A stretch of DNA of 61,023 nt. Origin: an uncultured Clostridia bacterium (GTDB taxonomy: Bacteria > Bacillota > Clostridia > Oscillospirales > Oscillospiraceae). How positions within the stretch are numbered: position 1 is the stretch's first letter; each line of letters begins with the position of its first letter. Under the pieces are notes generated by a model. It saw only the letters and a list, made by a program, of their open reading frames with translations, was not told the DNA's origin and did not search any database. The stretch is taken from positions 1-61,023 of the forward strand of contig CAMCRV010000012.1 in the NCBI GenBank assembly GCA_945877365.1. Reading direction: 5' to 3'. Of the stretch, positions 43,148 to 59,231 are shown in pieces. Position numbers and translations under genes: made by a program.

Positions 43148-43186
43148 GGGTTCGATTCCCCTCGGCTCCACCACTCAAAACCGCCT
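43148..43186 (+). repeat. attR core of prophage 1 (right copy of 39-bp repeat)
   Basis: Identical to 323-361. It contains the displaced ssrA 3' end. Because a second, incomplete prophage begins immediately after it, this copy may also be the old attL of that element. Confidence 0.93.
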
Positions 43187-43377: not shown

Positions 43378-46300
43378 TTACCGCAATCCCAGAATCCTGT
43401 CCACCTCTGCGTTACCGGTAGACAATCCTGTACTTGCTTTATCCGTCTGTTTCTCCTCCTGCTCTTTGTCTTTCTCTCCTGCCGCATTGATGTCCGCTTT
43501 TACCTTCTCTCCCACCTTCCTGTCATATGGATTCTTCCTGGCAGAGAACTGCTTGTTGTAGCTCTGCCACATTGCCGCCTTCTCTGCCGTAGTCCATGCC
43601 GGTCCCGAGCTGCTGGTGATTCCCATCAGTGCCTCCAACGGATTGTTGTTTCCTCCCGGGAAACTGTCCAGGCAGGCTCTTACCTCCCTCTGGTTCAGCT
43701 TCCCGCTGCCGTCCGCATCGAAGTCGAAGATCTTCTCCCAGAATTGCAGCTGCTTCTGGATGGATACGCCGTTGTCCACCAGAATCGGCAGTCTGGTTTT
43801 CATGGTTGTAGAGATGCTGGCGCTCTGAACCATCTTTACCATGTCCTTTTCAGACAACCCGGAATCCACGATCACCCGCAGCTTCTGCGCATCCGATACA
43901 GAATTGCTCCCGGCCTTCGGCTTCAGCGCGGTGATTTTGTTGACTACCTCGTATGCCTTGTCCGCATCCACCCCTGCCTCCACGGCCTGATTGAAATACT
44001 TGGCATCCGCCGGCACCATGCTGTAGAAGGTGAAGCAGTCCTTTGCCGTCTTCTTCTGCCTATCTGTCAGATTCTGCTTTTCCAGCCAATAGGAGAAGTC
44101 CTGTGCCTGCTGGCTTGCCTTCTTTCCGGTGTCCTTGATCCGGCTGTACTCGTTCTGCACCTCTATGAAGGTATCCAGATCCATACCCGCCGCCCGGAAC
44201 TGGGATATCTCGTCCTCCTTGCTGTCGGAGATCTTCTTCCGGTACAGTTCCAGCTTGTGCTCCTCTTCCAGGTTGCTGTCGGCAATGGCATTTCGCTTTG
44301 CTGTGCTTTTTTCTGTCCCTTTCAATCTGTCGGCATCCTGAATCTGCATCAGCGTCTTTGCCACCTCTGCGCCGCTGGCTCCTTCGTCTGTCATTTTGTC
44401 CATCAGCTCCCGGGTCTCATCGCTGGCCACCATACCATAGTAAAGTGCCGCCTTTGCATCATCACTGATATCCGCCCTCTGGATTTCCCGGATCTTGGCA
44501 ATCGTTACAGTCTCGTTTTCCTTCGCCTGTGCATTCTCCACCTCCGGAGCTGTGGTATACACCTCCTCGTTGTCCCGGTTTTCCTCCATGAAGGTCTTTG
44601 TCTTGCTTTTGTCGATACTCCTCTCATAGGTCATAGCCCGTGCCTTCGGTGATAAATCCATACCCAGCAGCACTTCCAGCATATTCTGGTTTTTGCTCTT
44701 TTCCTCTGTCTTCTCGGCTTCCGCCATCTTCTGAATCACATCATAGGCAACCTTGTCTTTCGTCCCTGCATCAATAAGATCCTGATACAATGCCGTCTGC
44801 TTTGCATTCAGACCTTTATACCCATTCTCTGCCCATTGCTGCGCCTGGGGCAGACTGCTCTTGCCCATCACCGCCGCCTGGAGCACCTGTCCCGGTGTCA
44901 TGTCCTCTTGGAAGATCGGGTATTGCAGCTGCTTTTCTCCCTCGTTATTGACGGTGTAGCTTCCCCCGTCCAGCAGTGCCTTCACGCCCTTCCAGCTCTT
45001 CTGTAGCTGTCCATAGCCGAAAGGTGCCACCAGATACCCCAGTTTCTGTGCCTCTGTCAGCGCGATCTCCCGCTTCTTCTCGTCTGCAATATCCTCATTG
45101 TTCAGCTTTGTCAGGTTCGTGAAGGAAGGCACCGCTGCACTCATTGGGATTCTTCCTCCGTTGATTGCTGATGTAAACGGCAGCTGATCCAGCACATTGG
45201 ATTTCAGGTTCTGCAATGCCTTCTGCCCGTTCACCTTCTCCGTAGTAAAATCGATTCCCTCCCCGGAAATCAGATCCTCCCCTGCATCCCAGAGATTCGG
45301 CATCTGGTATCCTTTGAAATCTCCCACGGTATCATTCAGGATTCCGAATGGATCCATGGCAGGCCGTCTGCCTGTGAATTTCTCATAGGTGTCGTTGAAC
45401 AGGTATGCCAGCAGGAAGTATTTCATAAGCATCGCCGCCAGCACCGCCGCGCCTTCCTCCGCCGCCTGTCTCGGCATATCCTTGAAAACCTCGCTGAACT
45501 GATTGTTCACCTCCAGCTGGAATTGTGTGAATGCCTTGAATATCGGATTCCTGCTTTCAAACAGGGTCGGCATGGCTCCCTTGCTCCTGTCTGCCATCAC
45601 CCCGGCTGCAAACAGATCTGCCTGGTGCATGGCCTCGCTTTCGCTCAGCCCTCTTCGAATATTCTGCTTGTATGCTGCCCTCACGATGGATTCCGATGTA
45701 AACCCATCGATCCAGTCCATTGGCTTTCCCAGCCAACCGCTGACCTTTTCCAGCCCCGTCTGCACCAGAGCCTCGCTGCCCCTTCTGTTGGTCAGGAAAT
45801 CACTGCGGTATACAAAGTCATCCCCCTGTTTCATGTTCCGCAGACTGTCCCACATTCCCTCCAGAATCATCCCTCTGTCCAGTCTTCCGGCTGCCTGCTG
45901 CAATGGGATAAAGTTGGTAATGGCAGATCCCAGGTTACCGGCGATCATGTTTGCCCCCAGCTTGCCCTCCAGCTTCTTCATGAAGGAATAAATCTTTCTG
46001 CCCAGCAGAGATTCCACGCCTCTGTCCAGCCGGCTCTTTTTCCCGGCCAGCAGATTTGTGTATTCCATCAGCTCATTGACGAAGTTGCTCAGGGTGAATC
46101 TCCCGTGTTCATAGATTTTATTTATCTTGTCTTCCTTCTCTTCGTCTGTCAGACGGGTGTCCGCCCTTACCTCGTCCACCTGCTTCCGGATTCCGTCATC
46201 CGTGGATAGATACCGGATCTGGCTTTCCAATGCCCTCAGCTTCTGGATGTCCTCCGTGTGGTAGATCACATTGGCAACACCCTCGATGTACTTGTCGAAG

Positions 46301-49300
46301 CCCTTCACCGCATCGTATGTGGTCTTTCCGCCCTTCCGCTCCAGCGCGTTTCCGAACCACTGAATACCCGGCTTGAACTGGCTTGTCAGACCGTTTATGG
46401 AGGTCGGCAGCGCGTCTGCGTTCAGATCCACGCCGATTCCAAAGCCCATCCGCACCAGCATATTGTCCACGGTTTCCTCGCTGAAGTGTGGGAAATACCC
46501 TGAACGATATGGCACCGGCTCATAGCCGAATTGCACCCGCACCTCGTTCATCCTCTGGAACAGCTCATCATAGATCTTTCGGAAGCTCTCCACATTGCTC
46601 TTCACCTTGTTGGGATCCAGGCTTGGATTGTCGGCAAACACGCTGTCAATCACGCCCTGCCACTGCTCCATGTTCAGTCCGCCAATCTTCACGCTTCCCT
46701 GCGTCTTGCTCAGCTGTGCGATGGCGTCCATGGCCTCTCCCACGATCTGGGTTGCTGCGCTCTCGCTGATCTTGTCCCCGTCTGCTGTCTTTGTGCTGAT
46801 CTCCATGTTCCGCACCAGACTCCGCATATCGTTTTTGAATCTGGTTGCCTCCGCCTCATGGATCTGCACCGGCTCAAAGTACATCTGGTTGATCTTCTCT
46901 CCCTGCGCCCGGTACTTCACGATGTCCAGAACATTTCTCTGCATGGTCTCCCGGGCGTACAGCAGCCCCATGGGCTTGTCCTTCCATTCTATGATGTCCG
47001 TCAGCACACTGTCAGCCTCGTCTCTCAGCTTCTGCTTCACGCCCCGCTTATAGGCCGACATTCGCTTGTTCAGGTCTTCGTATGCTTTCTTTGCCTCATA
47101 TAGCTGCAAAAGCTGCCCCGGCTTCATATCCTTGTATACATCCGCCTGCAGGTCTTCCGGTGTCATCTCCCCTCTCAGCAGCTTCCCGATGATCCGCTCC
47201 TTTTCATCGTCAATGAGCATTTTATCCCGGATCTTCTCGTACTCCCGCCTTGCCTTCCGCAGGTCATTTCCTGCTTCCAGTGCCTCCTCCACCGTCTTCG
47301 GCACATTGGCATTTTCAATTCTTCTGGCCTTCTCCCGGTTGGCGTATCCCCGCACATCCCGCAAATCCGGCATAACATCCCTCAAGGCGCTGGCCATGTC
47401 GTTTCGGAACCACTGCTTCGCGGTTTCCGCATTCTCTCCGTAATAATCATCCAGGCTCTGCTTGCTCTGTTCGATGCTGTGGGAAACCTGATACATCCTT
47501 TGCAGCTGCTCGGCTGGCGTTGTGATGCTCTCCGGGAACAGCTCCGGCGCCCTCTGGTTCAGCTGTCTGTATGCTTCCGCCACCGGCATACCGTTCTTTA
47601 CGATCTTCACATTCCCGAAGGCGTGATTCTTGAAATTAGCGTAGTCCGGTATTCCCGCCTTGTCCTCCTGTCCGATGCTCACCTCGGTGTTTCGCAGCCA
47701 GTCCTTCACATCCCTGTAGGTGTCATAGAACAGTGTATTCGTCATCATGGCCTTGTCCATGATCTCGTCAAACAGCTGCCGCTCCTGCTCCGGGTCGATC
47801 CTTCCCCCTTCCAGATATCCGTCCACCAGCTTCTGCAAAGTCGGCATCAGCTCCTGCCGCTGCACTGTCCGCGGCACTCCGAGGCTGTCCGCCATTTTGT
47901 TCATCAGCCGTCTTTCCACGCCGTTCAGGTAGTTGGTTCCCTTCTTGTTCAGATTCTGCCGCACCGTCTCCCCCACGGCGGTCTCCTCCTCCGTGTTCCT
48001 CGCGGCACTTAAGGAATACCGGATATCTGGGTTCTGTCCGTCAAAAGTACCCACATTATCTGTTGCTGACTTTATCTGCGTATTGTTGAACACCACATAG
48101 AAGGTATCTTTTGCCATAGGATCATCCGTGTCATTCTCAATAATCACACCGTCATATCCGTTTTTCTTTGCATAGTCTAGAATTGGTCTTTCAAAACTCG
48201 GGTCTGAAAACTGTCCGGGCGACAGTTTGGCATTATATGGGTTTTTCATATTCAGGTATACAGCCTTGACTTCTCCGCCGCCCCGTTCTTCCATCATGGC
48301 TTCTGCATAGTCATCGGATTCTGAGAACCAGTATTCTCCCTTTCCCGACTGAAACACATGAAACTGTCCGTTCGTCCCATGATACACAATCTTCGGTGTT
48401 CCGTCTGAATTAACCACCTTACTTGCAGTATGCGGATGCTTCTCCCAGTCCCCAAACCACCTCTTAAACTGTGTACTCTGCGTAACATTTTCAAATCTAG
48501 GCTTGACAGGTGACTTTGCATCGCGTATACTGTTTACAAAGCCATCAAGGCTGCTAAGACCCCTGGGTATCGGATTCCCAGCGCTCTTCAGCACTTTGGT
48601 GGTTTTTTCTTTATTCACATAAAAAAGCGATACTTCCCCATTTTGGTGTGCGTTTATTGCATCAATCAGCCTTGTAATGCTATCTGTATTCCCGTGAGCA
48701 GTTGCCACTTTATTTGTGTCAATTCGTAATCCGTTGATATGTCCATGTCCTCCAACCTGAATGGCACAAATAACTTGTTTCCCACTTGCTACCTTCATTT
48801 CAACAAGAACATCAATATTTGATTCCGAAGCGTTTGCCTTTCCTATGCGCTTATCGTAGATAATAGCAATAGGATCAGCAATTTTTTCAGGTAATGAAGA
48901 TAGTTCCCTAAGTGTGAATGTGTGATCAAGTTTTTCCTGATCACTTCCCTTGTATGTTCCATTTAGTGATTCGTTTATATGCTTCTGATTTATCGTCAAA
49001 GGAAGATTTGCAAGTCCTATCTTCTGTAAAACACTCGGTGTTCCTCCCAATACAAAAGAATCCCTCTCCGGAAATACTCCTTGTTGGAAGTCTGTAAGTT
49101 GCTGTTCAAATGATTTGCTGAAATCATACCCTGAATTGCTTGAAAATATCTGTTTTTGTCCGCTATCTGTATCTTCTTCTTCACCATCCACCCCGGACGG
49201 TGTTTTTTTATTCTCAATCCCGTCTTCCTGTGTCCCGTTGTCTGTGCCTGTATCAAACCTCCATTTCCCGTCATCTCCCCGGAACCATCCTGTCTGCTGC

Positions 49301-52300
49301 CGGATGGTCTCAGCGGAAACCTCCTGCTCCTCCATCTGTCTGGCCGTTTCCAGACTTTGCAGGTCGGCAGTCCTCGCCCCCTGCCCGGCGTAGCTGAACT
49401 TCTTTTTCAGCTCCCCGGTTTCCTCCATCTGGTGGAACATTTCCAGCTTCTGCTCATAGGTTTCCTCGTCCATGTCCCCGTTGCGGTACATTTCCTCCAC
49501 ATAGTCCCGGTATTCCTCCATGCTTCTGGGTTCTCTTTCTGTCCATTGTTTCCCCGTCTGCATGGTCTGTTCCGCCTGTCCAATCCCAGTCGTTTGGGAA
49601 TCCGCTGCCGGATATCGCATTCCCGTTGTCTCCTTCAGGGCCTGTGCGTACAGCTGCCTGGTATTCCGCAGGAAAATCCGCTCCTCTGCCTTCTCGCTGC
49701 CCCTGTGCTTCACCAGCATACCGTCGATCCAGTTCAGAATCTTCGTGGCAATGGGTCTCTGCTTCTTGGCCAGCTCCCGGATGCTCTTCTCGTCCCGCAG
49801 AAGATATTGTGATACATAGTTTGCCACGATCTCCCTGTCCAGCTCCTCCGGTGTCACCGTCTGCCCGTTGGCTTCATACAGCCTTTTCTGCTCTGTCCGG
49901 TAGTTGTCGATATCCACGCCTTGAGCGAACCTTTCCAGTGCAATCTGCTTCAGGGTTCCATACAGTTTGCTCCCCTCTATGCTGTGGGTCAGCTCATGGC
50001 TGAATACCTGCAAATGGGGAAGGTCTCCCTCTGTGTTGATCCAGATTTCCCCATTCAGGAAGAATCCGTTCTCCACCACCTGCAATCCCTTCGGCTTTGT
50101 GTAGGCGTGTACCTTCCGCCCGGTGATCCGTCCCAGTCTTCCCAGCATGGCTGCCCAATCCGCTCCCAGCTCCTCCAGCGGCACCTCGTCATTTGCCGTC
50201 ACAACAGTCTCCTGCTCCGGCTGCATGATGTCCTTTACGCCCTGCTCCTCCGTGTCTGCCTGTTCCCCTGTTTGCACGGCATTTACATCCGATTCCACGC
50301 CCGTGTTATCCGTTTGCACGCCCGTGTTATTGTTCTGTTCCGCTGTAACCGGATTCTGTTCCGCTGTAATGGTGTTTTGTTCCGCTGTATCAGTATTCTG
50401 TTCTCCCTGCTGCCCCGTCATCACCGAGCTTTGATACAGCCGTCCCATGTCATACTGGCTCAGGCTCTTCCCCTTGCTCAGCTTCTGCTGCATCTCCTGC
50501 GCCACCTGATAGGCAGGTGTCTGTGGATCCTGTGCCAAACCGTCCCGGATGACTTCGTTGATATTCTCCTGTGTGACCCCGGCTCTGTCCAGTTTAATTC
50601 CCAGTCCCTTTGCTCTGGCAGCGCCCACGGCCTGAGCTGCGCCGCCCATCATGCCGCCGGACATGGCGCTTTCAATCAGGGTCATGGCTCCCTGCATCAC
50701 CATTTCCCTGTCCGCCGCTGCCTTGGCCTGCTGATAGTCCACGCCCTGCATCATCAGCTGGGCGATATTCTGGTTGTATTCGCTCTTGTCTCTCAGGATC
50801 ACGCTCTGGGCGATGGCAGAGCCGATGAAGTTGGTTCCTTCCTCCCCCATCTCGATTACTGCGCTCTTTGCACTTTCCTTCAGCCACTGCCCTAGGCTTG
50901 CCGGGGCAATCTCCGCCTGTTTGATAATTCTGTCCAGCGGGATTTCTTCTGTCAGCACCTCCAGTCCAGCGTCCACGGTGCTCATCAGCACTGCCTCCAT
51001 GGGGCTTGCCCCCTGTGCGCTGTATTCTGCCATGGCGTTCCCGAAGGCAGAGGAGGCGATCAGCGCCCGGGAGATTCCCTTCACGCCGCCGCCCATGTAT
51101 GCCCGAATCAGGCTGTCCGCCGAACTCATACCGGCCTTGTATATCGCCGCCAGTGCCTCGCTCCCTGCTGTTGGCTTCTGCCCCCGGATGTTCTCCGCCA
51201 CGGCTCCCGTCAAAGTCTGTCCCACCACATTGGGAAGGTTCCCCAGATTGTTGGGATCCAGTGTGGAATACTGCCCCGTAGGCTTGATAATCAGATTCTG
51301 CATCTGCCCCAGCGTTCCGGTGACAGATCCCGCTGCGTTGTATGCCCGTCCCTCGATACTGGCCCACAGCCCCGGCCAGAATCCGTCCTCCACATTGGAA
51401 TACTTCTCTCTGGCCGCATTGGTTTTCGCCTCGTTCTCCACCCGGCTCAGGCTCTCGGCGATTTTCTGTACCTTGTCCTCGCCGTACTTCTGCGCCAACT
51501 CCATCTCCGCCGCTCTGGCAAGTCCCAGCCGTTCCGCGTTCTCATAGGCCTGCCTGGTATTTGCCTGATCTGCCGAAGCGGAGAAGTATGCCAGCCGTCC
51601 TGCCCGGTTTGCGTTGAACAGCCGCATCTTCTGCTGGTCTTCCTCCGACCAGCTCAAAAACTCCTGCACATTGCGCATGGTGGTTACTCTGTCGTTCTGG
51701 GCATTCTCCTGCTGTGTCCAGAAGTCCACCATGGTTTTCAGCTCCACTTCCTTCTGATCCTGCCGCGGCTGCACCGCCCCTGCCGTCTCGCTTGCGCTGT
51801 AGGCATCCAGCATATCCAGCCGAAGGTTCTTTTCCTTCTGCCGTGTGTACTCCGGTGAGGCTATGTATGCGTCATACTGCGCCTTCGCCTGATTCTTCAT
51901 CTCGGTGATGTAGCTAAGCCCCTGCTGTGCAGCCTCCGTCTTATATCCCGTGTTGAATCCAGTTCCTAGTCTGGTAAATGTCTGTTGTCCCGGCAGTACC
52001 ACTCTCTGTTGTCCCTGCCCAACCTGCATCAGCCGGGAGTTTCCCCCCGGCTGTCCTTTTGGATAATACACACCGTTTATGTTAGCTACCCGTTTTGGTT
52101 CCATCAGAGCGATATGCTCCTGCCGTGCCGCCTCAGAACTGGCTCCGGCAATGATTGCCTGCTGTTTCGCCTGCTGATATCCCTGATGGAACTCCTGAAA
52201 ACTCATAGGCTTCGGAACAGGATTATAAATCGGCTTTCCCGTAGATACTGCTCTTTCATTGGTTGCTGTTGCCGCAGCCATTTCGTTCAGGATCTTCTGA

Positions 52301-52311
52301 TAAGCGTTCAT
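43378..52311 (-). CDS. Giant polyvalent protein 2 (zincin, MuF-C-like, ADP-ribosyltransferase-like, LPD38-like, EF-hand)
   Basis: 2977 residues; TAAGGAGG precedes ATG 52311. In order: charged helical N-terminus; Gly/Ala-rich membrane-active-type region about 380-600; low-complexity TAEQN repeats near 640-690; metalloprotease HELTHSIE near 771; MuF C-terminal-like domain starting near 1090; ADP-ribosyltransferase polyvalent domain near 1290-1430 (FGDWEK, VYHGTNGQF, WFSES, ending NPDIRYSLS); long helical region; LPD38-like domain near 2050-2350; and an EF-hand loop DADGSGKLNQRE near 2860. It lacks the methylase and helicase of giant 1. Likely injected with phage DNA. Confidence 0.87.
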   Translation of the reverse strand: MNAYQKILNEMAAATATNERAVSTGKPIYNPVPKPMSFQEFHQGYQQAKQQAIIAGASSEAARQEHIALMEPKRVANINGVYYPKGQPGGNSRLMQVGQGQQRVVLPGQQTFTRLGTGFNTGYKTEAAQQGLSYITEMKNQAKAQYDAYIASPEYTRQKEKNLRLDMLDAYSASETAGAVQPRQDQKEVELKTMVDFWTQQENAQNDRVTTMRNVQEFLSWSEEDQQKMRLFNANRAGRLAYFSASADQANTRQAYENAERLGLARAAEMELAQKYGEDKVQKIAESLSRVENEAKTNAAREKYSNVEDGFWPGLWASIEGRAYNAAGSVTGTLGQMQNLIIKPTGQYSTLDPNNLGNLPNVVGQTLTGAVAENIRGQKPTAGSEALAAIYKAGMSSADSLIRAYMGGGVKGISRALIASSAFGNAMAEYSAQGASPMEAVLMSTVDAGLEVLTEEIPLDRIIKQAEIAPASLGQWLKESAKSAVIEMGEEGTNFIGSAIAQSVILRDKSEYNQNIAQLMMQGVDYQQAKAAADREMVMQGAMTLIESAMSGGMMGGAAQAVGAARAKGLGIKLDRAGVTQENINEVIRDGLAQDPQTPAYQVAQEMQQKLSKGKSLSQYDMGRLYQSSVMTGQQGEQNTDTAEQNTITAEQNPVTAEQNNNTGVQTDNTGVESDVNAVQTGEQADTEEQGVKDIMQPEQETVVTANDEVPLEELGADWAAMLGRLGRITGRKVHAYTKPKGLQVVENGFFLNGEIWINTEGDLPHLQVFSHELTHSIEGSKLYGTLKQIALERFAQGVDIDNYRTEQKRLYEANGQTVTPEELDREIVANYVSQYLLRDEKSIRELAKKQRPIATKILNWIDGMLVKHRGSEKAEERIFLRNTRQLYAQALKETTGMRYPAADSQTTGIGQAEQTMQTGKQWTEREPRSMEEYRDYVEEMYRNGDMDEETYEQKLEMFHQMEETGELKKKFSYAGQGARTADLQSLETARQMEEQEVSAETIRQQTGWFRGDDGKWRFDTGTDNGTQEDGIENKKTPSGVDGEEEDTDSGQKQIFSSNSGYDFSKSFEQQLTDFQQGVFPERDSFVLGGTPSVLQKIGLANLPLTINQKHINESLNGTYKGSDQEKLDHTFTLRELSSLPEKIADPIAIIYDKRIGKANASESNIDVLVEMKVASGKQVICAIQVGGHGHINGLRIDTNKVATAHGNTDSITRLIDAINAHQNGEVSLFYVNKEKTTKVLKSAGNPIPRGLSSLDGFVNSIRDAKSPVKPRFENVTQSTQFKRWFGDWEKHPHTASKVVNSDGTPKIVYHGTNGQFHVFQSGKGEYWFSESDDYAEAMMEERGGGEVKAVYLNMKNPYNAKLSPGQFSDPSFERPILDYAKKNGYDGVIIENDTDDPMAKDTFYVVFNNTQIKSATDNVGTFDGQNPDIRYSLSAARNTEEETAVGETVRQNLNKKGTNYLNGVERRLMNKMADSLGVPRTVQRQELMPTLQKLVDGYLEGGRIDPEQERQLFDEIMDKAMMTNTLFYDTYRDVKDWLRNTEVSIGQEDKAGIPDYANFKNHAFGNVKIVKNGMPVAEAYRQLNQRAPELFPESITTPAEQLQRMYQVSHSIEQSKQSLDDYYGENAETAKQWFRNDMASALRDVMPDLRDVRGYANREKARRIENANVPKTVEEALEAGNDLRKARREYEKIRDKMLIDDEKERIIGKLLRGEMTPEDLQADVYKDMKPGQLLQLYEAKKAYEDLNKRMSAYKRGVKQKLRDEADSVLTDIIEWKDKPMGLLYARETMQRNVLDIVKYRAQGEKINQMYFEPVQIHEAEATRFKNDMRSLVRNMEISTKTADGDKISESAATQIVGEAMDAIAQLSKTQGSVKIGGLNMEQWQGVIDSVFADNPSLDPNKVKSNVESFRKIYDELFQRMNEVRVQFGYEPVPYRSGYFPHFSEETVDNMLVRMGFGIGVDLNADALPTSINGLTSQFKPGIQWFGNALERKGGKTTYDAVKGFDKYIEGVANVIYHTEDIQKLRALESQIRYLSTDDGIRKQVDEVRADTRLTDEEKEDKINKIYEHGRFTLSNFVNELMEYTNLLAGKKSRLDRGVESLLGRKIYSFMKKLEGKLGANMIAGNLGSAITNFIPLQQAAGRLDRGMILEGMWDSLRNMKQGDDFVYRSDFLTNRRGSEALVQTGLEKVSGWLGKPMDWIDGFTSESIVRAAYKQNIRRGLSESEAMHQADLFAAGVMADRSKGAMPTLFESRNPIFKAFTQFQLEVNNQFSEVFKDMPRQAAEEGAAVLAAMLMKYFLLAYLFNDTYEKFTGRRPAMDPFGILNDTVGDFKGYQMPNLWDAGEDLISGEGIDFTTEKVNGQKALQNLKSNVLDQLPFTSAINGGRIPMSAAVPSFTNLTKLNNEDIADEKKREIALTEAQKLGYLVAPFGYGQLQKSWKGVKALLDGGSYTVNNEGEKQLQYPIFQEDMTPGQVLQAAVMGKSSLPQAQQWAENGYKGLNAKQTALYQDLIDAGTKDKVAYDVIQKMAEAEKTEEKSKNQNMLEVLLGMDLSPKARAMTYERSIDKSKTKTFMEENRDNEEVYTTAPEVENAQAKENETVTIAKIREIQRADISDDAKAALYYGMVASDETRELMDKMTDEGASGAEVAKTLMQIQDADRLKGTEKSTAKRNAIADSNLEEEHKLELYRKKISDSKEDEISQFRAAGMDLDTFIEVQNEYSRIKDTGKKASQQAQDFSYWLEKQNLTDRQKKTAKDCFTFYSMVPADAKYFNQAVEAGVDADKAYEVVNKITALKPKAGSNSVSDAQKLRVIVDSGLSEKDMVKMVQSASISTTMKTRLPILVDNGVSIQKQLQFWEKIFDFDADGSGKLNQREVRACLDSFPGGNNNPLEALMGITSSSGPAWTTAEKAAMWQSYNKQFSARKNPYDRKVGEKVKADINAAGEKDKEQEEKQTDKASTGLSTGNAEVDRILGLR
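50332..50402 (-). repeat. 21-bp tandem repeats within giant gene 2
   Basis: TGTTCCGCTGTA recurs every 21 bp (three full copies plus a part), encoding a 7-residue TAEQN-type repeat. An unstructured linker; a likely site of copy-number change. Confidence 0.75.
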
Positions 52312-53339: not shown

Positions 53340-55007
53340 TTATTCCTGATTCTTCACATGGCTCTGCTGGTAGTATTCTCTTGTGATTTCCAGAATCTTC
53401 ACCTGATTGTCCGTCTCCTGGCTGCAGTACCGCGTTCCCTCTATGCGGATCTCATACTGCCGAACCGCCCCGATTCCGATGCTTGCATAGGCGTTCTGAT
53501 TTTGGATACTCTCCACAAGTCCCGATTGTCCTTTTGTTCCGCCCCATCCTGTCCATCCCTGCCCGTCCAGCCTGATCCGGATTCCGATGGGATGGGATGC
53601 CCGGATATGCAGCCGCTTCACCGACCTGCGGTACATACTCCGCCCCGTGGTCACATTGTTGTAGGTACTGTTGTCCGTGAAGGGTGCAAACTGCGCCCAG
53701 AACTCCACACTTTCCTCCATCTGCGCCCCCTGCGGCACATTGGCGGCATCTCCGTTCAGCCAGATCTCCCCCTTGTCGTTGAGCCAGTAAAGATCCATTC
53801 CGATTCTGGCAAACTGTACCGCATGGGTGTCGTCCTCCCGGCTCCACTGGCTGCACCTTGTGTCAAATACATACATCCCCCACTGTCCGTTTTCGTCCTC
53901 CATGGAGATGTAGTATTTCACCCCATTGCTTCCTGCCACTGCGTTTCGGAATCTCCGCTCCCCCAGCTTCTTGGAGATCAGCGTGGGAATGCCGCCGCTG
54001 TAGGCCACCACCCCATTCAGCCCCAGCCAGAACAGCGTCTCCCCGGCTACGGCAAGGCTGTCTCCGCTCCCCGGCTCCACGCCCATTGTTGCGCTGCTCA
54101 GCAGCTGAAAGTTACTTGGGTAGCTTCCGTATACCTTGTAGATTTTGTCCTCCTTGAAAAGCTGTGGAAAGCCCTTGTAGCTCACCGCACCGCTGAACCG
54201 CCCCGGGGATTCCGGCATCACAGTCCAGCTGTCGCTTTCCAGCCCATCGAAGACATTCCAGTTGGTTGGGTCTCCCGGCTTGCTGGCGTATACGGTCTTC
54301 CCGTCTGTGCCCCACAGCCGGTTCTCATTCTCCGTCATGGCGATCATGTCCGGCACGGTTCTCTCGATGGTGATTGTCCCGGTCTCCGTCACTGGCTCCT
54401 CCCCCTTCAGGGTGAAGGTGTTCTCGTAGAAATGCATGGTGTCCCCGGCAATTTCCCGGATAATCGGGGTCTTATTGTTCTTTGGCTCTGCCGTGCATCC
54501 ACTGATGGTCACGGCATCCCCCTCTTTGAAGTAGTCCCCCCAGTTTACGCCCTCTGCCCGGATTGCGTTGGCCTTGGCATTCTCGTCATACAGCTTTCCG
54601 TCCTGAAACACCGCCCCGGTGCCTTCCCATTTGCTTCCCATACCGGTCATGGTTCCGTCCTCGGTGTTGAAGATCAGCTTGTCCGGCAGAATCAGAATCC
54701 GCTTTCCCATAGTGCAGAAGCGTTTCTTCCCAGGCGTGACCTCCGCCACCTTCTGCCCATCGTAATAGAATCCGCTTCCGTCCACCCATCCCAGCTTGTC
54801 CAGTGCCACCAGTCCCCCGGGATCATTCAGCTTCCCGATTTTGTATCTCGGCAGACGGCTGGCCAGCACCGGGTAGTGGTCTGTGCACATATTTTCCATG
54901 TCCCATATCTCGCCGTCTCTGGCTCCCTGGGTGTGGTTCATCCCTCCGAACTGCACCTGTGTTGCCATTCGGTTCCGCTTCACATACTGCATACTCGGCA
55001 GTCTCAT
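53340..55007 (-). CDS. Nozzle / tail hub-like protein, prophage 2
   Basis: 555 residues, AAGGAGG before ATG 55007. Repeated Trp/Gly beta blades (ENRLWGTDGKTV, SWTVMPESPG, LFWLGLNGVV) suggest a beta-propeller. Divergent homologue of 21973-23736, keeping DMENMCTDHYPVLASR and the DQLEIT-like C-terminal beta sandwich. Lies before the broken ejection gene as in prophage 1 (with other tail genes lost or never present). Confidence 0.6.
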   Translation of the reverse strand: MRLPSMQYVKRNRMATQVQFGGMNHTQGARDGEIWDMENMCTDHYPVLASRLPRYKIGKLNDPGGLVALDKLGWVDGSGFYYDGQKVAEVTPGKKRFCTMGKRILILPDKLIFNTEDGTMTGMGSKWEGTGAVFQDGKLYDENAKANAIRAEGVNWGDYFKEGDAVTISGCTAEPKNNKTPIIREIAGDTMHFYENTFTLKGEEPVTETGTITIERTVPDMIAMTENENRLWGTDGKTVYASKPGDPTNWNVFDGLESDSWTVMPESPGRFSGAVSYKGFPQLFKEDKIYKVYGSYPSNFQLLSSATMGVEPGSGDSLAVAGETLFWLGLNGVVAYSGGIPTLISKKLGERRFRNAVAGSNGVKYYISMEDENGQWGMYVFDTRCSQWSREDDTHAVQFARIGMDLYWLNDKGEIWLNGDAANVPQGAQMEESVEFWAQFAPFTDNSTYNNVTTGRSMYRRSVKRLHIRASHPIGIRIRLDGQGWTGWGGTKGQSGLVESIQNQNAYASIGIGAVRQYEIRIEGTRYCSQETDNQVKILEITREYYQQSHVKNQE

Positions 55008-55017
55008 AGCTTCCTCC

Positions 55018-55533
55018 TTATACCGTGCTTCCGTTTACAGTCACATTCCCCACCAGCTTCACGCTCACGCCTGTCCCTCCTATGGTAATGCTCCCGTCCT
55101 CTCCGATGGTTACGGCCTGCCCCAGCTCGTCCAGTGCAATCTGTGCCTGTCCCACCTGCTCCTCAAGCCCCTGCACCAGCGCTTCCATGCTGCCCTTCCA
55201 GCTCTGCACCGTAGCCAGATCCGTTTCGTTCTCCGTCACCCGGGCAGCCAGATTCCGTATCCGCTCGTCCAGCTTCTCAAGGTCAGCCACCACCGCCAGA
55301 AGCTCCTTGTCTGTGCTGTCCACCGCATCGGCCACCTCTTTTGTGGTGTCCTTCTGGAAATTCTTCATAGCCTTCTGGTTCCAGTTGCTTGCTTCCAGAT
55401 TGCTCAGCTGGTATTTCAGGCTCTCCACCAGAATGGGAATGAAGTTGTGCAGCTCCATTACCATCTGCCATGTGCTTTCCCTGCCTGTGATGGTAGGCAT
55501 ATTGTTGTCGATGCTCAGCCAGTTGCTCGCCAT
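55018..55533 (-). CDS. Tail protein with coiled coil, prophage 2
   Basis: 171 residues. N-terminal segment MASNWLSIDNNMPTITGRES, a long coiled coil (about 50-135) and a short beta end (TIGEDGSITIGGTGVSVKLVG) resembling a trimeric stalk with a knob. Encoded 10 bases before the nozzle start. Positional counterpart of 21245-21976. Confidence 0.65.
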   Translation of the reverse strand: MASNWLSIDNNMPTITGRESTWQMVMELHNFIPILVESLKYQLSNLEASNWNQKAMKNFQKDTTKEVADAVDSTDKELLAVVADLEKLDERIRNLAARVTENETDLATVQSWKGSMEALVQGLEEQVGQAQIALDELGQAVTIGEDGSITIGGTGVSVKLVGNVTVNGSTV

Positions 55534-55552: not shown

Positions 55553-55574
55553 GGGGCTGGCTATCCGCCAGCCC
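55553..55574 (-). terminator. Terminator downstream of the prophage 2 lysis cassette
   Basis: GGGGCTGGC and GCCAGCCCC form a 9-bp stem with a 4-base loop; on the minus strand it is followed by TTTTTGC. Separates lysis from tail genes, so expression of the latter may need read-through. Confidence 0.8.
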
Positions 55575-55632
55575 CACGCTGTATTCCCCTGTCATTGCGA
55601 ACCAGTGATCACACTGGTGTGGCAATCCGTCC

Positions 55633-56091
55633 TTATTCCTGCTGCTTCTCTCCCATAGCCTCCACGGCCTTCGCCCCGGCTTCCAGCAGCTTCACCAGCC
55701 ACCCGGGGACGCTGGCACCCATCTTCACGGCATTCTCCAAAATACTGCCCAGCTCCGTAATGATGTACCACGCCAGTACCAGCGGCAGGATCACACCCGG
55801 CCACTGAATCGTCACCGCCGGAATGTTTTCGCAGATAATCAGCATAATAATGTCCGCCATGCCGGATACTGCCACCACAAGGATCATGCCGCCCTTGTGC
55901 CACAGCCCCTGCCGGGCTACCGCGCTGCTCCACTTGCCCTCCTTGCAGGCCGCCATGGTGCCGGAGATGTAGTCAAGAGCCATGGCGATGACCCATGCCA
56001 CCATCATAATGCCCTTCCAGCCCAGCAGCTCCCCCAGCGCTGTGAAGAACACCACCAACGCCGCTTTCCATGCCAACATTGTTTCCTTCAT
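55633..56091 (-). CDS. Phage holin (second copy)
   Basis: 152 residues, same N-terminus as 529-987 (MKETMLAWKAALVVFF) and only a few substitutions across the length; ends MGEKQQE. Four hydrophobic segments, PF05105-type. GGAGGAG precedes ATG 56091. Probably still functional, and able to complement or interfere with the lysis timing of prophage 1. Confidence 0.9.
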   Translation of the reverse strand: MKETMLAWKAALVVFFTALGELLGWKGIMMVAWVIAMALDYISGTMAACKEGKWSSAVARQGLWHKGGMILVVAVSGMADIIMLIICENIPAVTIQWPGVILPLVLAWYIITELGSILENAVKMGASVPGWLVKLLEAGAKAVEAMGEKQQE

Positions 56092-56096
56092 TTGAT

Positions 56097-56321
56097 TCTC
56101 CTCCTTTACTCCACGATCATCCAGTCATCTGCCAGCATATCCGCCTGAGAAGCCAGCCAGCCAACCTGTCTGCCGCGTGTGCCAACAAACACCAGAGCCT
56201 GACTGTCAATGTCAAGGTGCTGCACAGGCCGAACCGGAATGTCGCCGGGAGCAGTATAGGAAAAATCGTGTCCCAGCTCGACATATTGATTCTTCCCATT
56301 CCAGCCTGCCCGGGCAATCTT
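56097..56321. repeat. Long direct repeat shared by the two lysis cassettes (right copy)
   Basis: Matches 1283-1507 with one visible mismatch over 225 bp. See left copy. Confidence 0.9.
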
Positions 56322-56543
56322 CTTTCCCATCTTCGCCGCCTCAATGGCCAGACCGAAGTTCATGCCGGAAGTCTCCCGGTAGGCTGCCTCGAACACATCC
56401 TTGGGAGACCAGCTCTCATAGCCGTCAGGGTAGATGACCTTGTAGCCGTCCTCAAACCCACGGTCAGCAAGGCAGTTTTCTGCGGGAACCTTTCGCATCT
56501 TAGGCTCCGCCTGAATGATCTTGGTTCCAATGTACTGTTTCAT
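56106..56543 (-). CDS. Tad2-like (DUF2829) domain protein, second copy
   Basis: 145 residues. The C-terminal DUF2829 domain is identical or nearly so to that at 1292-1744, but residues 15-36 differ completely (KMRKVPAENCLADRGF here), so a variable segment lies between two conserved ones (IGTKIIQAEP and DGYKV-YPDGYESW). GGAGG before the start. Located between endolysin and holin. Thoeris inhibition is inferred from family membership. Confidence 0.8.
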   Translation of the reverse strand: MKQYIGTKIIQAEPKMRKVPAENCLADRGFEDGYKVIYPDGYESWSPKDVFEAAYRETSGMNFGLAIEAAKMGKKIARAGWNGKNQYVELGHDFSYTAPGDIPVRPVQHLDIDSQALVFVGTRGRQVGWLASQADMLADDWMIVE

Positions 56544-56573: not shown

Positions 56574-57239
56574 TTATCCATATGTAAACCGGTTCACAAA
56601 CCCACGGTTCCACATGCCTGCATGGATGCCCCAGCTGTACACGCCGATTTCGCCGTCTGTGATATGCCGGCTGACAACGGCCAGCAGCTTCTCCTTGTCC
56701 CGGCAGTGCAGATCCAGTGCGTTTCCGGTCATGTGCAGGCTTGCATATGCGCCGCCGACTTCGGAGTTGTGGATGCTGCACCGGTACCCGGAGCCTCCAG
56801 CCTGTGCGATTTGGATTGGTTCCCCGTAGTCATCCCGAATAAGCTGGAACATCTCCACCATCTGCTTGCTGATGATGGATTCCCGGCAGCACCCATTTCC
56901 CTGACAGTGGATTTCATGCGCCCAAAGATTTTTGGACAGCTGCACATCCACCCCCCGGGGAATGTGATAGCAGCCATCGGATTGCAGGTATTTGGCAGCA
57001 TCATCAGATGCAGCTGTTAAGTTTTCCTTAACAGCTTCCTCCGGCATACCGTAGGCCACAGCGTGGCGTAGTGCCTTATCCGTTTCCTGCCCTGCCAGCC
57101 CGTCCACCACGATGCCGCCGAAGTCCTCCTGAAACCGCTCAACAGCCGCTTTGGTCTGCTGCCCATAGATGCCGTCTATGTTCCCGGAGTAATAACCCAG
57201 ATACGCCAGCAGGTTTTGTCGCTGCTTTATGGATGCCAC
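56574..57239 (-). CDS. Endolysin: peptidoglycan-binding plus M15 peptidase (second copy)
   Basis: 221 residues; near-identical to 1774-2436 except the linker at 63-85 (EEAVKENLTAASDDAAKYL here). Zinc ligands are intact (SLHMTGNALDLHC; WGIHAG). Probably active. The 192-bp tract 56692-56883 appears identical to 1892-2083. Confidence 0.92.
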   Translation of the reverse strand: MASIKQRQNLLAYLGYYSGNIDGIYGQQTKAAVERFQEDFGGIVVDGLAGQETDKALRHAVAYGMPEEAVKENLTAASDDAAKYLQSDGCYHIPRGVDVQLSKNLWAHEIHCQGNGCCRESIISKQMVEMFQLIRDDYGEPIQIAQAGGSGYRCSIHNSEVGGAYASLHMTGNALDLHCRDKEKLLAVVSRHITDGEIGVYSWGIHAGMWNRGFVNRFTYG

Positions 57240-57240
57240 A

Positions 57241-57531
57241 CTATGTCCTCCTTAAATGCTGCTGTGCAGCAGCCTTTTTCACCTTTTTCATCTTCTGCTT
57301 ATCGTTAAATCCATACCGTTCCGCTTTGTCTGCGTTCCCGATAGTATAATAATTCTCCATCAGGAAAATAAGGTCATTTGTTTGCGTAAGCATCGGTTCG
57401 AGATCTCTAATTCGCCGTTTAAGCCAGAATGCTTTCTCCGGAGATGTCTCCGTCGCCAACTCAGCCCTGAGCATCCGCAGCCGTTCACGCAGCATTTTCG
57501 CAGACCGCTTGTATTCATCGACCGGAAACAC
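57241..57531 (-). CDS. Helical protein in the prophage 2 lysis cassette, unknown
   Basis: 96 residues, highly charged (MFPVDEYKRSAKMLRERLRML), mostly helical, with a basic C-terminus (KMKKVKKAAAQQHLRRT). Lies between the Spo0A-C-type gene and the endolysin; absent from prophage 1. A small accessory gene, possibly working with its neighbour. No family recognised. Confidence 0.6.
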   Translation of the reverse strand: MFPVDEYKRSAKMLRERLRMLRAELATETSPEKAFWLKRRIRDLEPMLTQTNDLIFLMENYYTIGNADKAERYGFNDKQKMKKVKKAAAQQHLRRT

Positions 57532-57573: not shown

Positions 57574-58071
57574 TTATTTCCCGGTTTTCATCCGCTGCTT
57601 TACCACATTGGCCATCCTGGCAATAAACTGTCCATTGGTTGGATTTCCCGTGTTTTCGCGCACAGTGTTTCCAAAATACTTCATCTGCGCGCTCTGGTCA
57701 CCGCGCTGCCATGTAATCTCAATAAGATTTCGGATACTTCGCTCCACCCGTCCAGCCGTGGTGTTGAATTCCGCCCCCAATCTGGGGTAAAGCCCTAATG
57801 TAAGGTTGCCCATCATCTTGTAGTCGCTGATCACAAGCATGATGCCCCGAACCGCATATGCAAAACCGTTCAGATGATCCGGCGCACCCAGATCCAGCAG
57901 CACCTGCCGAATTAACGCTTCCGGATCTTCATACACATATCCTTCGCATTCCGCGATATACTCTCCCTCCATGAGATCCCAGAGCCGTTTCCGTGCTTCC
58001 TCCATCTGTTTTTCATTCTGTGCCAGCAAAAGCTGCGCAATTGCGTTGATTTTCAACTCAATGCCAATCAT
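57574..58071 (-). CDS. Spo0A C-terminal DNA-binding-domain protein (phage-encoded)
   Basis: 165 residues; start ATG 58071 overlaps the preceding TGA (ATGA). Residues about 55-160 match the Spo0A_C effector domain: LLDLGAPDHLNGFAY, LYPRLGAEFNTTAGRVERS, then IEITWQRGD, FGNTV and GNPTNGQFIA, which include the conserved recognition helix NTT-x-RVER-IR. There is no receiver domain; the first 50 residues form a helical hairpin. It sits in the lysis cassette and has no counterpart in prophage 1. Binding to Spo0A boxes and interference with host sporulation is plausible but inferred. Confidence 0.88.
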   Translation of the reverse strand: MIGIELKINAIAQLLLAQNEKQMEEARKRLWDLMEGEYIAECEGYVYEDPEALIRQVLLDLGAPDHLNGFAYAVRGIMLVISDYKMMGNLTLGLYPRLGAEFNTTAGRVERSIRNLIEITWQRGDQSAQMKYFGNTVRENTGNPTNGQFIARMANVVKQRMKTGK

Positions 58072-58247
58072 AAAGTAACCCCGTATTTCGCAAGGATAGC
58101 AATGAAATCCTCCGTCAGCACCTTTTTCAGCTGGCCGGATGGCAGCTTGGCAAAGGCTTCTGCCATGGCGCGCATATCTGCCGCCGCGCTTTCGTCCGCC
58201 TGAATCTCCACCAGCCGCACCTTTGCCGCCTTTGTCCACTTATTCAT
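58068..58247 (-). CDS. Small conserved phage protein (homologue of 2433-2615)
   Basis: 59 residues (MNKWTKAAKVRLVEIQADES; ends LAKYGVTL). Shares K-W-A-K-RLVEI and GQLKKVLT-ILAKYGV with its prophage 1 homologue. The stop overlaps the Spo0A-C gene start by 4 bp, and the start overlaps the previous stop. In prophage 1 the homologue is coupled directly to the endolysin, so here two genes have been inserted between them. Confidence 0.75.
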   Translation of the reverse strand: MNKWTKAAKVRLVEIQADESAAADMRAMAEAFAKLPSGQLKKVLTEDFIAILAKYGVTL

Positions 58248-58554
58248 CCGCGCTCACCCCCAGCATCTCCAGCGCAGCCTTTGCATCCGCAAGCTCCGCC
58301 TCCATATCCGCCAACTGTTGCAGCTCGTACTCCCTCTGGGCAGCATCCAGCGAATCCCACGGCTTCCACGGAGACAGCATTTCACCACGGTATACCGTGC
58401 CATCCGGTGCTGTCCACGAATGTCCATCCGGGATGTAGCGATAGCCGTTGATATAGGTAGGGCATTTACCATCAAAGTGATCAACATCCACTGCCGCCAG
58501 ATTACCGCCATTTTCTGCATGGCAGATATAGTTTTCATCCAAAAAAACAATCAC
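58240..58554 (-). CDS. Conserved small tail-fibre-associated protein (homologue of 2718-3017)
   Basis: 104 residues; start taken at GTG 58554 (IVFLDENYICHAENGG), 7 bases after GGAGG. An ATG at 58578 lies inside the tail-fibre remnant and has no site. Conserved block YINGYRYIPDGHSWTAPDGT (cut here) and an acidic C-terminal helix. Same position after a tail-fibre gene as in prophage 1. Confidence 0.75.
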   Translation of the reverse strand: MIVFLDENYICHAENGGNLAAVDVDHFDGKCPTYINGYRYIPDGHSWTAPDGTVYRGEMLSPWKPWDSLDAAQREYELQQLADMEAELADAKAALEMLGVSADE

Positions 58555-58565
58555 GCACACCCCTC

Positions 58566-58671
58566 CTATTCCAGCCACATTTGCGATATTTTTAAAATGC
58601 TGTTAGCATTTGCGCCATTGCATCTGATATCGTTCAGGAATGCTCCATCCACAATGTGGAATACTAGCACA
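58566..58671 (-). pseudogene. C-terminal remnant of a tail-fibre/receptor-binding gene
   Basis: An open minus-strand frame ends at TAG 58566-58568, reading ...DGAFLNDIRCNGANANSILKISQMWLE. The ending (-WLE followed at once by the 2718-3017-type gene) parallels the end of the prophage 1 tip protein (CWLE). There is no start codon, and homology cannot extend past the gene at 58684, so the deletion junction of prophage 2 lies at about 58660-58680. Confidence 0.6.
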
Positions 58672-58683
58672 GAGGTGATGATT

Positions 58684-58938
58684 ATGGCAAAGAAAGGTAT
58701 GACCCATCCCGATGTGACCCGTGGGCCGAGAAATGAGACTTCCCCTGTCCCCCAGATTCAGGGCAAGGCCAAAAGCGGTAAGGAAAAAGCAAATCCTATC
58801 ATCGCAGGAACCACCGGCGCAAACCAGAAGGTGTGGCACGAAAAGCCCATATCCAAGGCTCACGGAATCATTGATACAGATCTGGCGAGGGATAATCTGG
58901 AAAACGGCATTCCGTTTGCAGATCTCCAGGACTTGTAA
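58684..58938 (+). CDS. Small basic protein, unknown
   Basis: 84 residues; AGAGGTG before the ATG. Pro/Lys/Gly-rich, probably disordered N-terminus (MAKKGMTHPDVTRGP), then a helix-poor middle and an acidic end (DLARDNLENGIPFADLQDL). On the plus strand, opposite to the flanking phage and mobile-element genes. I recognise no family. Either host or element cargo. Confidence 0.55.
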   Translation: MAKKGMTHPDVTRGPRNETSPVPQIQGKAKSGKEKANPIIAGTTGANQKVWHEKPISKAHGIIDTDLARDNLENGIPFADLQDL

Positions 58939-59066: not shown

Positions 59067-59231
59067 TTAGATTCTTTTAACTGGGACAGAAAGGACTTTC
59101 AGAATCAGGTTATCCACGCAGTCCGTGAAGCGTCCCTGCTGAATCAGTTTGTTCTTCATCTGGACAAGGCTTCTGATCAGAACTCTGTGTTCACTCTCAC
59201 TCAGATACAGGTAGTGTCTTTTCTTCATCAT
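59067..59231 (-). CDS. Small conserved protein of Firmicute mobile elements
   Basis: 54 residues (MMKKRHYLYLSESEHRVLI...DNLILKVLSVPVKRI); AGGGGG before ATG 59231. The KRHYLYLS-E-E start is typical of tiny proteins in clostridial conjugative elements. Possibly a ribbon-helix-helix-like or helical regulator. Function unknown. Confidence 0.6.
   Translation of the reverse strand: MMKKRHYLYLSESEHRVLIRSLVQMKNKLIQQGRFTDCVDNLILKVLSVPVKRI

Follow-up and report, generated by a model that had tools for sequence, protein, structure and literature searches.

Sporulation is one of the routes by which bacteria escape phages. Genes that touch its regulation are themselves carried by phages, e.g., homologues of the sigma factors SigF and SigG (sigF/sigG), which have been tested experimentally and depress the spore yield of B. 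subtilis by up to 99% (PMC10294663). Closer to the gene considered here, which is likewise phage-borne, is the truncated Spo0A of human-gut phages (Schwartz et al. 2023, mBio, PMC10294663), in which phages of spore formers encode the Spo0A effector domain without the receiver. That study aligned 29 effector-only Spo0A sequences from viromes and proposed a signal-independent control of sporulation; in the available part of the paper the receiver-less forms are presented as a sequence finding without a test. In Spo0A proper, the receiver keeps the effector domain inactive until phosphorylation, and the isolated DNA-binding domain needs no phosphorylation to bind its targets (PMC3485338).

The gene analyzed here lies in a window of 61,023 bases, the whole of one contig (C12) of a 2.15-Mb genome in 61 contigs. 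Since effector-only Spo0A of gut phages was reported by Schwartz et al. 2023, it is a further member of a published type. As far as the available text goes, that report makes no mention of a lysis-cassette position, an N-terminal helical hairpin, relatives beside XRE-ImmA pairs or changes at positions 258 and 260, features that the window protein or its clade has. What our comparisons appear to add is a clade of proteins of about 160 aa in the host genus (hereafter mini-Spo0As), their chromosomal relatives next to XRE-ImmA genes and the changed positions 258 and 260. The case ties a phage protein to a clade whose host members adjoin an XRE-ImmA pair, and it yields a concrete prediction of sign, repression or competition and not activation, from natural changes in a known activation region. 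The features discussed below are the following.

58240..58578, minus strand: first gene of the lysis operon, function not assigned; 57% identical to 3011-2724 of prophage 1 (tblastn)
58068..58247, minus strand: 59-aa phage gene directly upstream of mini-Spo0A; 59% identical to 2615-2439 of prophage 1 (tblastn)
57574..58071, minus strand: mini-Spo0A, a Spo0A effector-domain protein of 165 aa with an ATG start
57241..57531, minus strand: 96-aa protein, the second extra gene, with a GTG start; no Pfam match over the cut-off
56574..57239, minus strand: endolysin with PG_binding_1 and Peptidase_M15_3; 89% identical to the prophage 1 copy
56106..56543, minus strand: Tad2-like (Thoeris anti-defence 2-like) protein, PF11195 at 74.5 bits; prophage 1 copy 87% identical
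55633..56091, minus strand: holin, Phage_holin_4_1 at 106.8 bits; prophage 1 copy 97% identical
55553..55575, minus strand: terminator-like hairpin after the holin; 9 pairs, 8 of them G-C, with a T-run
55018..55533, minus strand: coiled-coil-like gene of prophage 2 after the lysis operon
53340..55007, minus strand: gene after the coiled-coil-like one, assigned by PHROGs to family 511, "internal virion protein"

Identity and predicted fold of the mini-Spo0A

The original prediction had placed a phage-encoded Spo0A DNA-binding domain at 57574-58071; the reading frame is real, and its strand is here corrected to minus, with the ATG at 58071 and the stop at 57574, the plus strand of the same span being closed by stops. 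PF08769 (Spo0A_C) is the only Pfam family in the ORF and matches residues 54-155 at 106.1 bits (E 1.1e-30; the cut-off is 25 bits), covering positions 1-102 of the 104 in the profile. The motifs on which the claim of a retained recognition region had been based, NTTAGRVERSIR, IEITWQRG, FGNTV and PTNGQFIA, are all present, and in the PDB a phmmer search matches the ORF to the Spo0A chains 1lq1 (E 6.9e-24) and 1fc3 (E 1.8e-23). By sequence, the protein is a Spo0A homologue but not Spo0A proper: the Spo0A equivalog of NCBIfam (TIGR02875) scores 100.7 bits against a cut-off of 200 and aligns at only positions 146-261 of 262. No receiver domain with a phosphoacceptor is found in the 165 residues, of which Spo0A_C takes up those from 54 onward; the receiver is missing, just as had been supposed, and residues 1-49 are modeled as a helical hairpin and linker. 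Compared to Spo0A (TIGR02875; 1LQ1, 1FC3), the window protein has the C-terminal fold and the recognition helix and is without the receiver.

The AlphaFold2 model (39-row alignment; mean pLDDT 86.6, pTM 0.68) consists of a well-predicted hairpin of helices 3-16 and 20-34, a poorly predicted linker and then the six helices of Spo0A_C. A Foldseek search of the PDB with this model gave seven matches at E<=0.001, all seven of them Spo0A chains, and the one from the DNA complex (1lq1_D) superimposes on the predicted structure with a target-normalised TM of 0.94 and an rmsd of 1.1. The predicted fold is that of the Spo0A effector domain. The best viral structure matches, both deposited as "Sporulation initiation factor Spo0A C terminal" and both of the same length class and fold, are A0A8S5TNE3 (Podoviridae sp. 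ct90d35, 160 aa; 30% identity, E 2.4e-8) and A0A8S5N4T4 (Podoviridae sp. ctiJY10, 163 aa; 24% identity, E 2.3e-5). PHROGs assigns the window protein to two unnamed families, 37855 and 24603, and a PADLOC search returned no defence-system match for the gene.

A protein search with the window protein gave 152 matches, the closest listed being P0002, which is 97% identical and present on two contigs, followed among the listed matches by a relative of 56% identity; the best 120 of the 152 are 158-166 aa long with Spo0A_C as sole Pfam domain. Estimates of dN/dS against five chromosomal homologues are 0.19-0.37, and these, obtained at dS values of 1.3-2.8 that approach saturation and averaged over host and phage branches, are signs of purifying selection on the gene.

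The lysis operon and its junctions

Prophage 1 occupies about 0.4-43.1 kb and is integrated in the tmRNA gene (1-348), the 3' end of which is repeated exactly, giving a 39-bp att-like repeat at 323-361 and 43148-43186. Prophage 2 spans 43.4-58.6 kb and is incomplete here, the contig ending at 61,023. Its lysis operon is transcribed from 58240-58578 through 58068-58247, the Spo0A_C gene, the 96-aa gene, the endolysin, the Tad2-like gene and the holin to the terminator-like hairpin; the attribution to a lysis cassette is borne out by the Pfam assignments of the endolysin, Tad2-like and holin genes and by the hairpin at 55575-55553. Prophage 1 has homologues of every gene of this operon except the Spo0A_C and 96-aa genes (tblastn), and its homologue of 58068-58247 (2615-2439) directly adjoins the endolysin (from 2433). 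At the junctions, CGAAATACGGGGT is common to both prophages, and prophage 2 resumes at AAAGCAGCGACAAA after the two extra genes. The pair does lie between two genes that are neighbors in prophage 1, as originally described; that it was inserted there is a direction which the junctions leave unpolarised, since the site is a mosaic boundary, with DNA identity between the prophages of 72-77% upstream and 92% downstream. A loss of both genes from prophage 1 is the other possibility. When 15 genes of prophage 2 or just upstream of it were compared, only the five lysis-operon genes and two others had prophage 1 homologues.

The same arrangement bears on whether a host contig might have been joined to prophage DNA in assembly or binning, a reading that we consider extremely improbable. 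The window is one of 61 contigs, and its two lysis modules are about 90-92% identical, a known cause of misjoins; against this, the start of mini-Spo0A overlaps the stop of the phage gene upstream by 4 bases (ATGA), the 97% identical P0002 lies on other contigs, and the order of holin, coiled-coil and PHROG-511 genes recurs in the IMG/VR loci L223, L224 and L225. At L218-L220 the coiled-coil and PHROG-511 genes have the same order after other small genes.

Several minor features of the two prophages may be recorded here. The Tad2-like gene is present in both lysis cassettes (1292-1744 and 56106-56543). Each prophage has a giant ORF (5182-18105, 4307 aa; 43378-52311, 2977 aa), and these possibly encode phage polyvalent or injected proteins. 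A 94-aa gene (58654-58938, plus strand) and a 54-aa gene (59067-59231, minus strand) precede the prophage 2 lysis operon, and their homologues are seen together after the holin at L272 (by eye).

Relatives on chromosomes and in phages

In 136 genus genomes searched, we examined 33 distinct intact mini-type loci (places among the matches listed): 24 are chromosomal, six are prophage early loci (L089, L199, L200, L201, L203, L204), and the remaining three are L088, L205, where XRE and IrrE-like genes lie near the mini-Spo0A, and the window. Outside this count stand two truncated copies (L209, L210), a duplicate (L193) and three further Spo0A_C loci that came from a Pfam search (L206, L207, L208). 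In the tree, one clade of 42 of the 59 rows (support 98/98; bootstrap not settled) holds the window protein together with the chromosomal copies, eight phage-early copies (the six of the genus plus L038 and L039 from IMG/VR), L088, L205, L206, L208 and database proteins; full-length Spo0A falls apart from it. Within the clade, the window protein groups with P0002, P0003 and P0021, and window plus P0002 share a long stem of 0.79 changes per column. When 394 genomes of the order were searched with P0003, the genome of the window alone gave matches at E<=1e-35; at this strict threshold the clade looks genus-bound, with weaker members possible elsewhere.

The chromosomal mini-Spo0As of the genus (e.g., the one on contig C53 of the window's own genome, and L077-L087) share with the window protein the clade, a conserved N-terminal stretch, N258 and mostly V260. 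All 24 (L006, L077-L087, L186-L192, L194-L198) face a divergent XRE gene that is followed by an ImmA/IrrE-type metalloprotease gene, across a gap of ~280-510 bp and, within the genus, in several distinct chromosomal locations; as the loci were sorted by their context, the count describes the group and is no test of a prediction. Pfam recognizes HTH_3 (XRE) and Peptidase_M78 (ImmA/IrrE) in the pair at L077. In contrast, the window gene lies in a lysis operon, with neither XRE nor ImmA/IrrE genes within five genes of it. Among the open-licence papers listed in our searches, those citing Schwartz et al. 2023 on Spo0A included, we saw no report linking XRE-ImmA to truncated Spo0A or to Spo0A paralogues.

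A gene for a small protein, frequently with what looks like a hydrophobic segment, directly precedes Spo0A_C in several of the chromosomal and phage loci (L006:6368-6613, L081:9404-9607, L084:3245-3526, L088:3231-3518, L089:63-317, L038:4387-4848), and its product is a possible partner of mini-Spo0A; the window copy is without this gene. At L088:2214-5474, outside an obvious prophage, an XRE-ImmA pair faces a row of small protein, mini-Spo0A, amidase endolysin and holin, and this locus possibly combines a chromosomal module with the remains of an adjacent prophage.

The 96-aa partner is likewise widespread, with homologues in 72 of the 136 genus genomes (about one per genome; four genomes have two), those in L077, L078, L079, L082 and L085 being 49-51% identical to it. 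In several genomes the homologue is followed by a sigma-70 region-4-like gene (80 aa with Sigma70_r4 at L077). It lies 2.0-2.3 kb from a chromosomal mini-Spo0A in G062, G064, G140, G142, G143 and G158, and in G028 and G031 it shares what looks like an operon with another Spo0A_C gene under 1 kb away; because the six genomes form one syntenic lineage and the latter two look like the same locus, these amount to two independent co-localisations besides the window, which suggest a shared origin or function. As both genes have chromosomal homologues near each other in several genomes, the pair was probably acquired by the phage from a host-type locus.

Further phage copies of Spo0A_C were sought by scanning IMG/VR with a phage-weighted alignment, which yielded 104 related stretches, 80 of them examined. 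Self-trained gene calling gave a Spo0A_C gene in 68 of these 80 loci, with 58 proteins of 90-189 aa, four longer and six shorter. From these genes' surroundings, 173 neighbors within two genes were selected and 136 scanned against PHROGs and Pfam, the counts being lower bounds, as 25 of 171 PHROGs families and 25 of 53 Pfam families are listed. The commonest named neighbors are an SbcC-like nuclease (at least 7), regulators or repressors (up to 5 each) and anti-repressors (2-3 each), again as lower bounds, followed by SSB (at least 3), RecT (at least 2) and Sak4 (at least 2); lysis-like neighbors are Phage_holin_4_1, PG_binding_1 and SLT (at least 2 each) and Amidase_3 (at least 1). The phage copies that belong to the clade adjoin replication and recombination genes (SbcC-like, Sak4, exonuclease, DnaB). 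Such neighborhoods raise the alternative of a local phage regulator, which would bind promoters of its own or a co-resident prophage and tune lysis, lysogeny or early transcription, with Spo0A ancestry providing merely the raw material. The replication genes beside the clade's phage copies, the repressors, anti-repressors, SSB and RecT beside phage copies that mostly fall outside the clade, and the 24 chromosomal copies facing XRE-ImmA, which look like a self-contained switch, all favor it; we rate it as unlikely, given also the sites and surfaces described below.

Lysis genes occur within four genes of Spo0A_C at seven IMG/VR loci (L357, L358, L359, L327, L346, L351, L307). At L307 the phage copy lies two genes after an endolysin-like gene; L327 is truncated at the contig edge and L346 and L351 are on the opposite strand, each with a lysis-like gene within four genes. 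A recurrent lysis-linked Spo0A_C, an idea prompted by L088, L357 and L358 (plus the duplicate L359), is not accepted for these UViGs. L357 and the genus loci L276 and L281 look like a host gene at the prophage end because a similar gene follows (by eye), L357, L358 and L359 probably represent such a host-type gene, and the recognition helix is degenerate in L357 and L358 (VEQSIRE). At L276, L281, L357 and L358, the holin side of the prophage is bordered by a divergent Spo0A_C gene (at L281 a tblastn match with no called gene), and by eye a similar host-like gene comes next in three of these; this is possibly a recurrent attachment neighborhood.

In surveys starting from the lysis genes, a Spo0A_C gene was detectable at 0 of 15 IMG/VR loci whose holin is related to that of the window (4-kb flanks), and three endolysin loci elsewhere than in the window (L213, L214, L216) had none. 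Among 30 genus holin loci, three had Spo0A_C (L268, which equals L088, L276 and L281), a survey that would miss a placement of the window type because its flanks were only 1.5 kb. Judged from these loci, the lysis-cassette position of the window gene is unusual and not typical. This rarity, the mosaic boundary, the long stem of window plus P0002 and the incompleteness of prophage 2 on the contig would all suit a pair of hitchhiking genes that recombination at the boundary took from the host and that are of no selected use to the phage. We nevertheless hold this to be improbable: the ORF is intact with its contact residues retained, the dN/dS estimates are low, though averaged over host and phage branches, the gene fits exactly into the operon through its 4-base overlap, and the 97% identical P0002 exists on two other contigs.

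In INPHARED, 14 of 50,697 records match, all labeled Bacteriophage sp. and all from human faecal samples. Eight of the 14 were examined, judged by eye from the called gene and the genes around it, and are not counted as phage evidence. Six (L158, L160, L161, L162, L164, L165) encode a Spo0A of 251-266 aa with a receiver-like N terminus among chromosomal-looking genes (by eye); L163 has a 125-aa protein in a chromosomal-looking context, and in L159 no gene was found. These MT83xxxx "Bacteriophage sp." records with apparently full-length Spo0A call for caution in counts of phage Spo0A.

Regulatory surfaces and possible roles

The B. subtilis domain served as reference, also for the numbering, in an alignment of 83 full-length Spo0As with 24 chromosomal and 8 phage-early minis, positions 247-254 being partly biased because many of the full-length proteins came from scan patterns that include part of them. 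E213, R214 and R217 are found in 100% of all three groups and in the window protein, and position 211 holds R in every one of the 24 chromosomal minis and in the window protein, and mostly R or K in the other proteins. The presumed DNA-contacting residues are thus kept and PF08769 matches significantly, so that neither of the two outcomes named beforehand as refuting the prediction has occurred. We take R211, E213 and R214 to be base contacts. Structural work has defined the contact residues of Spo0A, which C. difficile shares (PMC3485338). This constancy of the recognition helix argues against the local phage regulator introduced above. Other positions have changed: K195, at which the minis have F and the window protein L, differs from full-length Spo0As, as do Y173, R177, A219, A223 and 255 (R) in the minis, and Y238 is N in 96% of the minis and in the window protein. 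The changes at K195, R177 and Y173 might alter the DNA affinity or specificity of the minis.

The surface implicated in activation has changed as well. All 24 chromosomal minis and the window protein have N at position 258, where 99% of the 83 full-length proteins have D, and two of the eight phage-early minis (25%) keep D258; position 260 is V in 88% of the minis and in the window protein versus L in 74% of the full-length proteins, and A257 is kept in the window protein. Also kept there are G227, F236 and V240, presumably part of the first activation region of Spo0A. D258V and L260V were reportedly tested by Rowe-Magnus in 2000 with the same outcome as changes of A257, whereas the natural change at 258 in the minis is to N and not to the V reportedly tested in that work. 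In B. subtilis, A257 changes block sporulation while abrB repression remains (PMC9195935, which cites Rowe-Magnus 2000 for a "second region" of Spo0A needed for transcription activation). In Paenibacillus, A257V did not abolish spores, and changes at 162 and 174 suppress A257V (PMC9195935); because the minis differ from full-length Spo0As at both 162 and 174, compensation for the changes in the activation region is possible. Overall, the natural substitutions suggest binding with poor activation.

These surfaces also bear on the opposite proposal, that an unphosphorylated and always-on Spo0A domain triggers host sporulation, thereby taking the prophage along inside the spore. The retained G227, F236 and V240, with their presumed role in the first activation region, would fit it, as would the ability of receiver-less effector domains to bind without phosphorylation. 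Positions 258 and 260 have, however, changed in the direction expected to lose activation, and expression with the lysis genes would kill the cell and not let it sporulate; we regard a trigger as quite improbable.

Candidate Spo0A sites were counted in the window and upstream of the relatives. TGTCGAA occurs 5 times in the window versus 5.8 expected and not at all beyond 46.3 kb, where most of prophage 2 lies, which speaks against a local regulator and lends no support to the earlier idea that Spo0A-like sites time lysis. TTTGTCRAA with one mismatch gives 30 versus 24.2 expected in the window, a count reached by 11 of 100 shuffles, and the strict box upstream of 27 minis gives 1 match versus 1.3 expected. 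A loose 0A-like pattern is more frequent upstream of the 27 minis (16 versus 7.6; reached by 1 of 300 mononucleotide shuffles), which would favor a local regulator, and is given little weight because a single syntenic site accounts for 7 of the 16 and the count includes one site twice. For SpoIIGA of the genus, 20 of 30 loci could be framed, and their upstream regions held 0 strict matches and 3 loose ones versus 3.8 expected; because TGTCGAA is absent there too, it may not be the box of these hosts, which makes the counts in the window a weak test.

Taking these findings together, we tentatively propose, with somewhat less than even confidence, that the receiver-less mini-Spo0A carried by the phage is an unregulated binder that represses or competes, activates poorly and antagonizes host Spo0A. 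Through the 4-base ATGA overlap it would be translated together with the lysis genes and, as the receiver normally inhibits the effector domain, it would bind host Spo0A sites without phosphorylation. Because D258 has become N and L260 V in a region on which transcription activation depends, it is expected to occupy the site, so as to repress or compete, and to activate poorly; the net effect would be that a cell in which the phage finishes its cycle is kept from committing to spores. Interference with host sporulation is plausible, as the genome has a full-length Spo0A (contig C30), SpoIVA, SpoIVB and SpoIIGA, the last found in 59 of the 61 genus genomes scanned, its own included. The weak point of an antagonist is its presumed late expression with the lysis genes, which seems a strange time to block a developmental choice, and the six genus phage copies of the clade, being early genes, also count against it, as does the lack of XRE-ImmA neighbors at the window gene.

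A wider and more doubtful, if possible, scenario is that host and phages of this genus share a second Spo0A-type switch, in which mini-Spo0A has kept the recognition helix and lost the activation surface, XRE holds off the host copy, ImmA/IrrE inactivates XRE, and phages took the effector to override the spore decision. It would be a site-blocking protein released by proteolysis and not by phosphorylation, e.g., after DNA damage or prophage induction, and phages would have put this effector under early or lysis-gene control.

Outside prophage 2, the host genome has two receiver-less Spo0A_C genes, on C53 and C32. The one on C32 (L007:5214-6713) follows SpoIVB and encodes a 111-aa protein matching Spo0A_C at 97.5 bits.
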